Source: Fermentimonas sp. (GTDB lineage Bacteria; Bacteroidota; Bacteroidia; Bacteroidales; Dysgonomonadaceae). Taken from it: DNA of 64,000 nucleotides. The notes below the pieces were generated by a model. That model had not been told where the DNA came from, searched no databases, and saw only the letters and a program-made list of their open reading frames with translations. The translations under genes and the position numbers were made by a program. This document shows, one piece after another, positions 18,486 through 20,628 of the stretch. Location of the stretch: NCBI GenBank assembly GCA_015478775.1, contig JADMKP010000007.1, positions 496,001 through 560,000 of the forward strand, given 5' to 3'. Numbering within the stretch: the first letter of the stretch is position 1; each line of letters starts with the position of its first letter.

Positions 18486-20054
18486 CTATTTCATTTCAAT
18501 TTCTTCTTTCAGATCAATTTCATTTCCATCTTTATCGTAAAATTCGTACTGCAGGAAACCCAACTTTTGATTTGGGATTATTTTTAAACCTGCATTATAC
18601 TTTTTCCTCCATTTACTTTTTAATGAAAAGAAACCTTGCTGAACATACGCTGCAACATATGGATGAATGTGCAGACTGAATTTCTTCACTTTAAGTGTGT
18701 TCACTAAATAATCAACCTTCCCTTCTAAAGTATCAGTGAAAAGGAAAGAAGATTTTATTTTTCCTTTACCAAAGCAAGTGGGGCATACTTCGCTTGTGGT
18801 AACTTCCATTTCGGGTCTAACACGCTGACGAGTAATCTGCATTAGTCCGAACTTACTCAATGGTAAAATGTTATGCTTGGCTCTATCACTCGACATTAAA
18901 TCCTGCATTGTAGATAGCAACTTGTTACGATGTTCGCCTTTACTCATATCGATAAAGTCGATAACAATAATACCTCCCATATCTCGCAATCTAAGTTGCC
19001 GTGCTATTTCTTCTGCAGCAGCCACATTTACCTCATAAGCGCTGTCTTCCTGGCCTAGCTTAGATTTGTTTCGATTACCGCTGTTTACATCAATAACATG
19101 CAATGCTTCAGTGTGATCGATAATTAAATAAGCTCCATTTTTAAATGTAACAGTTTTACCAAAGAGCGATTTTACCTGTTTTGTTACGCCGAAGTTGTCT
19201 AAAATTGGTAATGCACCTTTATATTCCTTTACGATATTTTTTCTATCGGGTGCAATTAAATTAACATACTCGGCAATCTGTTTTGCCACATCTTTGTCAT
19301 TGATGTGAATCTGTTCAAAAGAGGGACTAAATATATCGCGTAATAAAGCCACTGTGCGCCCTGTCTCTTCAAATACAAGAGAAGGTGCTTTAGCTTTTTG
19401 TATTTTACCGATACAATCTTCCCATCTTTTAATCAATACCTTAAGTTCACCATCAAGGTCAGCAACTTTTTTACCTTCAGCATTAGTCCGTATTATAACT
19501 CCATAATTCTTTGGTTTAATACTTTGAATTAGCTGACGTAGGCGTGCTCTTTCCTCTCGTGACTTAATTTTCTGAGAAACTGATACTCTATTGATAAATG
19601 GAATTAAAACCATAAATCTTCCGGCGAAAGATATCTCTGAAGTTAATCTTGGACCTTTAGTTGATATCGGTTCCTTAGCTATTTGAACCAATATTTCTTG
19701 TCCAACTGAAAGTACATTAGATATCAAGCCTTCTTTATCAATTTCTGGTTGCAACTTCATCTTCTGGAGCTGCCAACCCTTTTTTTTGTCTTCAACTTGT
19801 TTCTGAAATTGCAGAATCGAGTTAAATTCAACCCCTAAATCCAAATAGTGAAGAAAAGCGTCCTTTTTATGTCCCACATTCACAAATGCTGCATTAAGGG
19901 CAGGCATAAGTTTTTTAACTTTGCCCATGTAAATACTTCCAACCGAAAAAGCTTCATCTTGATTTTCCTGCTGTAACTCAACTAACTTATTGTCTTCAAG
20001 AACAGCAATCGTAATTTCTTTTGGTTGAACATCTACAACAAGTTCGCTTGTCAC
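18486..20054 (-). CDS. rng: Ribonuclease E/G family endoribonuclease
   Basis: A single-strand-specific endoribonuclease acting in rRNA maturation and mRNA decay. The 522-residue protein begins MTSELVVDVQPKEITIAVLED, followed by the S1 RNA-binding insert (SIYMGKVKKLMPALNAAFVNVG, about 42-63). The catalytic magnesium-site aspartates lie in HVIDVNSGNR (about 313) and IIVIDFIDMSK (about 359). The zinc-link cysteines are in VCPTCFGKGKI (about 424). The short length without a degradosome scaffold tail suits RNase G. The leader contains a long hairpin (20154-20195). Confidence 0.93.
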   Translation of the reverse strand: MTSELVVDVQPKEITIAVLEDNKLVELQQENQDEAFSVGSIYMGKVKKLMPALNAAFVNVGHKKDAFLHYLDLGVEFNSILQFQKQVEDKKKGWQLQKMKLQPEIDKEGLISNVLSVGQEILVQIAKEPISTKGPRLTSEISFAGRFMVLIPFINRVSVSQKIKSREERARLRQLIQSIKPKNYGVIIRTNAEGKKVADLDGELKVLIKRWEDCIGKIQKAKAPSLVFEETGRTVALLRDIFSPSFEQIHINDKDVAKQIAEYVNLIAPDRKNIVKEYKGALPILDNFGVTKQVKSLFGKTVTFKNGAYLIIDHTEALHVIDVNSGNRNKSKLGQEDSAYEVNVAAAEEIARQLRLRDMGGIIVIDFIDMSKGEHRNKLLSTMQDLMSSDRAKHNILPLSKFGLMQITRQRVRPEMEVTTSEVCPTCFGKGKIKSSFLFTDTLEGKVDYLVNTLKVKKFSLHIHPYVAAYVQQGFFSLKSKWRKKYNAGLKIIPNQKLGFLQYEFYDKDGNEIDLKEEIEMK

Positions 20055-20224: not shown

Positions 20225-20317
20225 TTATTTTTTCTTTTTGTGCCTGTTCTTTCTTAATCTTTTCTTTCTCTTGTGGACAGACATTTTATGTCTTTTCCTT
20301 TTTTTTCCGCTTGGCAT
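20225..20317 (-). CDS. Small basic AURKAIP1/COX24-domain ribosomal protein (bS22/mS38-like)
   Basis: A 30-residue, extremely basic protein: MPSGKKRKRHKM, then SVHKRKKRLRKNRHKKKK. The spaced K/R-x-H-K-R-x-K-R-L-R-K pattern is that of the AURKAIP1/COX24 domain, known in mitochondrial mS38 and in the actinobacterial 30S protein bS22. Bacteroidetes genomes carry near-identical peptides annotated under this domain. It probably sits near the decoding centre of the small subunit, by analogy only. AGGAG lies 8 bases before the ATG, a canonical Shine-Dalgarno sequence rare in this window. It lies between the HU and RNase G genes, all minus strand. Confidence 0.85.
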   Translation of the reverse strand: MPSGKKRKRHKMSVHKRKKRLRKNRHKKKK

Positions 20318-20325
20318 GCTTTAAT

Positions 20326-20330
20326 CTCCT
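20326..20330 (-). promoter_or_regulatory. Strong Shine-Dalgarno sequence of the COX24-type gene
   Basis: On the minus strand AGGAG ends 8 bases before the ATG at 20317. The other starts I inspected here (xseB, rsmA, sdhC, HU, rpsB, tsf) are preceded by A/T-rich sequence with no such motif. Confidence 0.8.
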
Positions 20331-20346
20331 ATTAATTAAGTTAATC

Positions 20347-20628
20347 TCATTTTATTTTTTTCACCTGACCTACAAATGTTTTTGAAGGCTTGAATGCTGG
20401 AATATTATGCTCGGGTATAATTATTGTTGTGTTTTTTGAAATGTTGCGAGCTGTCTTTTGAGCTCTTCTTTTAACGATGAAGCTACCGAAACCTCTTAGA
20501 TAAACGTTCTCATCATTAGCTAGTGAATCTTTCACAACATCCATAAAAGATTCAACTGTAGCTAAAACTGAAGTTTTATCCACACCTGTCTTTTTTGCAA
20601 TCTCGTTTACAATATCTGCCTTAGTCAT
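20347..20628 (-). CDS. hup: HU/IHF-family DNA-binding protein
   Basis: A nucleoid-associated dimeric DNA-bending protein. The open frame begins at 20691, but the conserved family start is MTKADIVNEIAKKTGV at 20628, giving 93 residues, the usual HU size. VYLRGFGSFIVKRRAQKTARNI and IPAFKPSKTFVGQVK are the DNA-binding arm and C-terminal signatures. The Pro at the arm tip that normally intercalates is within IIIPEHNIPAFKP. A possible -7 box (TATATTTG, minus strand, 20689-20696) would give a leader of about 55 bases. It is divergent from ssb. Confidence 0.92.
   Translation of the reverse strand: MTKADIVNEIAKKTGVDKTSVLATVESFMDVVKDSLANDENVYLRGFGSFIVKRRAQKTARNISKNTTIIIPEHNIPAFKPSKTFVGQVKKIK

Follow-up and report, generated by a model that had tools for sequence, protein, structure and literature searches.

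We found that the gene for bS22, a 30-residue protein of the small ribosomal subunit, is preceded in a Fermentimonas genome by a Shine-Dalgarno (SD) sequence, AGGAG, whose presence and position are conserved in one clade of the family, and that this signal is absent from eight other genes in the same genomes. It is conservation, not pairing energy, that sets the bS22 SD apart. We judge the chances to be evenly balanced that this is a selected SD, gained in one clade of the family, which pairs with a free 16S tail and thereby ties bS22 to the status of the 30S subunit. The original prediction, made from the window (the whole 64,000-nucleotide stretch analyzed here), had described the SD and proposed that ribosomes lacking bS22 may selectively translate it; the observation was confirmed and its interpretation is partly supported.

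Identity and neighborhood of the bS22 gene

The minus-strand ORF at 20225-20317, translated as MPSGKKRKRHKMSVHKRKKRLRKNRHKKKK, encodes a bS22/mS38-type ribosomal protein, as judged from its matches to proteins in ribosome structures (Table 1). In a PDB sequence search, its residues 1-30 matched chain 5 of 7JIL (E 5.5e-9), which is entered there as 30S ribosomal protein S22, as well as a chain of 9I5V (E 1.9e-9); the match to the Borrelia bS22 in 8FMW covered residues 1-28 (E 2.5e-5). Thus, with matches over 30, 30 and 28 residues, the initial identification as a COX24-type, bS22/mS38-like protein was right. The Pfam family COX24_C scored below its cut-off (12.7 bits against a curated score of 23; E 0.12), and a search of NCBIfam with the protein gave no match. 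We weighted the ribosome-structure match over the Pfam result, because Pfam describes COX24_C as the C-terminus of mitochondrial COX24 and the ribosome match is more specific. The protein is the same as bS22 of the Flavobacterium johnsoniae (7JIL), C. acnes and Borrelia ribosomes, with a match to 7JIL chain 5 over its full length, and a search of the genome gave one match.

Table 1. Features of the bS22 locus, in window coordinates numbered on the plus strand
Feature	Position	Strand	Evidence
bS22 (AURKAIP1/COX24-type small-subunit protein), 30 aa + stop	20225..20317	-	ORF list; matches to PDB 7JIL chain 5 and 9I5V
Spacer between SD and ATG, 8 nt	20318..20325	-	Sequence
Shine-Dalgarno AGGAG	20326..20330	-	Sequence; 32/37 genus loci, spacer 8 or 9 nt
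HU/IHF-family DNA-binding protein, upstream gene, without SD	20347..20628	-	Pfam PF00216, E 1.2e-27; SD in 0/30 genomes
RNase E/G family ribonuclease (rng), downstream gene, without SD	18486..20054	-	Pfam PF10150, TIGR00757; SD in 0/30 genomes

As originally described, an AGGAG with an 8-base spacer stands before this tiny gene; it lies in the 29-nt gap between HU and bS22, where the upstream region reads TTAATTAATAGGAGATTAAAGC, followed by ATG. RNase G starts 170 nt behind bS22. The gene order HU-bS22-RNase G is widespread: of 80 named loci retrieved by way of the RNase G protein, the best among 591 candidates, 57 had a bS22-like ORF, all of them titled Bacteroidota or groups within, and 23 had no such ORF in reach; one of the named loci (L190) belongs to the family of the window.

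SD sequences are not used generally in the genome

We scanned 1.23 Mb of the genome for AGGAG or GGAGG within 18 nt before the first ATG of ORFs of at least 85 aa, and used as a control a mock window placed another 40 nt upstream. The motif preceded 19 of 933 ORFs, compared to 23 of 933 in the mock window; starts were set mechanically, such that the 19 include some false ones, and those less than 65 nt from the end of a stretch, rplE included, are outside the count. AGGAG with a spacer of 5-10 nt was found at 9 of these starts and in 8 mock windows. Smaller nested samples gave 1/316 starts compared to 5/316 mock windows for AGGAG alone before the first ATG, and 8/605 compared to 16/605 for either motif (20/605 if other ATGs are allowed). 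Since the motif is no commoner before starts than in the mock window, SDs are not used generally in this genome, as had been proposed. The further statement that the genome avoids SDs was too strong, as they are about as frequent as chance would give, or slightly rarer, and any avoidance is at most mild.

AGGAG also stands before the mechanically assigned starts of genes for MnmG/GidA (L387:4626-6500), an ATP synthase subunit (PF00231; L379:18052-18942), a protein of the lipoyl ligase fold (L381:7288-8040) and an ABC transporter ATPase (L101:8980-9714).

The bS22 site pairs with the 16S tail over 5 bp (-7.3 kcal/mol by duplexfold), and its description as a strong SD holds in a relative sense only, since by the same program rpsU (-17.4 kcal/mol) and rpsR (-12.2 kcal/mol) pair more strongly. 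By energy alone the site is unremarkable, because 35 of the 933 starts pair at least as stably (40 in the mock window). It also falls short of the published bound for an extended SD (below -13 kcal/mol, obtained with a different energy program). SD-bearing loci of the genus range from -7.3 to -9.7 kcal/mol in all but one (G084, at -13.4 kcal/mol), and the latter value recurs only in G091 and G092 among 90 family loci. In a fold of the RNA around the bS22 start, a weak 6-bp stem takes up part of the SD (z of -2.0 for the whole stretch).

Conservation and history of the bS22 SD

Within the genus of the window, AGGAG or GGAGG precedes bS22 in 32 of 37 loci (39 genomes searched, two without a match). 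Of the 34 distinct upstream sequences of the genus, 29 place AGGAG 8 or 9 nt before the ATG, in a gap that has otherwise diverged. In the family, 40 of 90 loci bear the SD (101 genomes, 10 without a match; 90 of 91 loci counted, as L329 was dropped with 16 nt upstream). Besides g1, it is found in genera g2 (1/2), g5 (1/1), g6 (2/2), g7 (1/1), g12 (2/2) and g15 (1/1), and it is absent in g3 (19 loci), g4 (5), g8 (1), g9 (10), g10 (1), g11 (1), g13 (3) and g14 (4).

Conservation across Bacteroidales, the check proposed in the original prediction, gave out beyond the family. Elsewhere in the order the SD precedes bS22 in 6 of 65 loci, 60 of which were hand-picked at roughly one per family among the matches listed for 228 genomes (65 of 67 loci counted; L036 could not be extracted, L034 was counted in the family, and L032 and L033 share a family). 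The SD is absent in all 57 bS22 loci of the named Bacteroidota, including Flavobacteriaceae, Chryseobacterium, Chitinophagaceae, Cytophagaceae and other Bacteroidales. At the level of the clade the same check held, as the genus counts attest. The 6 of 65 is somewhat above the background of 2 to 2.5% in the genome of the window (binomial P 0.002-0.006), and thus the bS22 SD may have arisen again outside the family.

On a tree of the adjacent HU proteins, the SD pattern in the family required 5 parsimony changes, compared to a mean of 29 and a minimum of 22 in 500 label shuffles; the tree is one weak marker, with one outgroup falling inside, and covers 87 of 90 loci (G001, G003 and G091, with short HU pieces, were dropped, and the SD-bearing outgroup L087 was left out of the count). 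Such a pattern fits an SD that was acquired near the base of one clade and subsequently lost, apparently on several occasions. We considered that the motif might have arisen by chance and been inherited by descent, with no function, which a distribution that fits one main gain and several losses would allow. Nevertheless, the motif and its spacing were retained in those 29 sequences even as the gap around them diverged, and the background frequency of the motif is only about 2%; we regard this explanation as very improbable.

Two other correlates of the SD were considered. The lengths of the HU-bS22 gap overlap between SD-bearing and SD-less loci of the family (medians of 24 and 33.5 nt), and thus we rejected this spacing as the cause of SD presence. 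Residue 14 of bS22 (window 20276-20278) is V or I in all 40 SD-bearing family loci and T (30), V (20) or L (1) in the SD-less ones, and outside the family it is T in 121 of 122 loci; since all six SD-bearing loci there have T, a functional link between the SD and V or I at this residue was set aside as shared descent.

Other ribosomal-protein genes bear an SD

In a set of 30 genomes, we found an SD before bS22 (27/30), rpsR (27/28), rplI (28/28), rplE (25/25) and rplF (26/28); denominators vary per gene as some genomes lack the stretch, and rpmD had no readable start (0). In the same genomes the SD is absent from HU (0/30), rng (0/30), rpsF (0/27), rplX (0/24), rpsN (0/25), rpsH (0/26), rplR (0/28) and rpsE (0/26). 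Thus, the conserved SD before bS22 contrasts with both neighboring genes, and it does so in one clade only. Across a broader sample of the family, rpsR bears an SD in 25 of 30 cases, including genus g3, where the bS22 SD is absent. In the genome of the window rplW bears an SD as well, and the sites before rplI, rpsR, rplE, rplF and rplW lie within L388:7861-8586, L375:52-1918 and L374:15794-16087. At rpsR, rplE and rplW the SD shares sequence with the end of the frame before it, and part of its conservation may therefore be coding. We did not count AAGGAGGACTTAA before rpsE in the same genome as an SD, since it is within the end of the rplR frame and 18 nt from the ATG. Pfam confirmed the identities of uL23, uL5, uL6, bL9 and bS18; the other genes of the S10-spc-alpha operon were named from their sequence and order.

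Leaving bS22 aside, 6 of 30 ribosomal-protein genes of this genome bear an SD, compared to about 15 of about 908 other genes, the latter an approximate count (Fisher P 2e-5). rpsR and rpsU entered this test since published papers pointed there, while the S10-spc-alpha operon was not picked for its SDs and on its own gave 3 of 26 genes (P 0.012; rplV and rpmJ unscored). Contrary to what had been supposed, the bS22 SD is therefore not unique but accompanied by other, stronger SDs before several ribosomal-protein genes.

An SD before several ribosomal-protein genes has already been published for Bacteroidia (PMC9976891), and the signal before rpsR, rplE, rplF, rplI and rplW here is of the same kind. 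Unlike the set found here, the gene list printed in that paper does not hold bS22, which has 0 occurrences in its main text. Nor did an SD of bS22 appear in the titles, abstracts and passages of the few papers found on bS22, COX24 or AURKAIP1 in these bacteria. bS22 seems to extend this group of SD-bearing genes by a further, lineage-specific member.

The anti-SD and the comparison with rpsU

The anti-SD reads GCTGGAACACCTCCTT (the canonical CCUCC) in relatives from the genus and the family, with a longer tail read in four loci; the 16S 3' end was not found in the window's own assembly, and the anti-SD is taken from these relatives. In addition, Y54 of bS21 is kept in all 52 family sequences read. 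Given the canonical anti-SD and this residue, sequestration of the anti-SD by ribosomal proteins, as the original prediction assumed, is to be expected in the family. The pocket that holds it is formed by bS21, bS18 and bS6, as described in passages of PMC9976891. The paper also gives an anti-SD altered to UCUCA in Chryseobacterium; by eye, two Chryseobacterium bS22 loci (L240 and L242) had no TGAGA in the 45 nt inspected, and the Flavobacteriaceae and Chryseobacterium bS22 genes that we read lack an SD, unlike that of the window.

The published system closest to this one is rpsU autoregulation in F. johnsoniae, which likewise involves an SD before a ribosomal-protein gene in bacteria whose ribosomes make little use of SDs; the canonical anti-SD of the relatives and the retained Y54 add to the likeness. 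According to passages of PMC9976891, F. johnsoniae ribosomes are generally recalcitrant to SDs, and loss of bS21 raises translation of reporters with AGGAGGU or the extended rpsU SD, but not of one with AGGA; autoregulation is tied there to extended SDs below -13 kcal/mol, and the weak AGGA site is unresponsive. The systems differ in that an extended SD has 9-13 bp, whereas the bS22 site has 5 bp and at -7.3 kcal/mol is intermediate between AGGA and AGGAGGU or an extended SD, and in that bS22, unlike bS21, is not a known component of the pocket in that account.

A parallel between bS22 and the bS21 gene had been drawn at the outset. We found that this parallel fails in the family, since only 3 of 52 rpsU starts bear an SD. 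One is that of the window's own genome (L130, G000:C7:161524-161682), with an 11-bp extended SD, AGAAAGGAGGT, at about -17 kcal/mol; the same 11-bp SD is found in two near relatives (L330 of G066 and L333 of G074). The other 49 family starts lack AGGAG and GGAGG (L345 has only 4 nt upstream, and L341 was not extracted), although one of them, L133 of G073, pairs at -10.2 kcal/mol without either motif. Passages of PMC9976891 report that no Bacteroidales qualify under the rpsU criteria used there.

Possible roles of the bS22 SD

The feedback first proposed, in which the anti-SD becomes exposed on ribosomes without bS22 and these then translate bS22 selectively, has only one point in its favor, which is that the pocket of bS22, formed by 16S h2, h27, h44 and h45 (passages of PMC10618245), adjoins the helix preceding the anti-SD tail. 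However, the published anti-SD pocket is that of bS21, bS18 and bS6 (passages of PMC9976891), the bS22 SD is short, and most bS22 loci read in Bacteroidota lack it (present in 0/57 and 6/65). Moreover, the loop is not indicated because genes for uL5, uL6 and bL9, proteins outside this pocket, carry the same signal. We consider such a bS22-specific loop improbable, and feedback through ribosomes lacking bS22 itself is not needed to account for the SD.

We also considered that the SD is a plain aid to initiation or reinitiation, used by ordinary ribosomes to translate bS22 after HU with no sensing of ribosome state. Several features fit: the gap between HU and bS22 is 29 nt, the two genes sharing an mRNA if this is so, the starts of rplE and rplW are inside the preceding gene, and the bS22 SD is of moderate strength. 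In contrast, the equally tight junctions at rpsN, rplR and rpsE have no SD (in 25, 28 and 26 genomes), the HU-bS22 gaps of loci with and without the SD overlap, and passages of PMC9976891 describe F. johnsoniae ribosomes as recalcitrant to SDs in general. A promoter-like motif, TAnnTTTG, in the 150 nt upstream of bS22 was found in 0 of 40 SD-bearing and 0 of 51 SD-less family loci (6 of 122 outside), and since it is absent from both kinds of family locus, the count is uninformative on this point. A plain aid is a serious possibility, if short of an even chance, and is not far behind the explanation that we prefer.

In the preferred explanation, a selected SD tied to 30S status, bS22 would join a small set of ribosomal-protein genes able to pair with the 16S tail, those of bS18, bL9, uL5 and uL6, and in the window's genome also uL23 and bS21. 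We infer that such pairing takes place in vivo at the bS22 SD and that it favors ribosomes with a free tail, that is, new 30S subunits or those deficient in bS21 or bS18. Output of bS22 would then rise together with that of the other SD-bearing ribosomal-protein genes when 30S assembly lags. Sensing of ribosomes with a free anti-SD is plausible, although the site, at 5 bp, is short; a role of the bS22 SD in feedback control of ribosome synthesis is plausible as a hypothesis. More tentatively, and we think it rather unlikely in this full form, the SD may be the tag of a ribosome-assembly regulon. In such a regulon, 30S subunits whose anti-SD is exposed would raise the translation of bS18, bL9, uL5, uL6, uL23 and bS22 together, along with bS21 in three genomes, and bS22 would have entered it when its SD was gained in the ancestor of the clade.

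It is puzzling that bacteria that ignore SDs should preserve an intact anti-SD together with a few SDs. The SD-bearing ribosomal-protein genes offer a set for comparison, with bS22, where the SD was gained and lost, and rpsU, mostly without an SD, as its variable members. The clade described here thus provides natural pairs of SD gain and loss in which a tag for assembly feedback could be told from a tuning of initiation.
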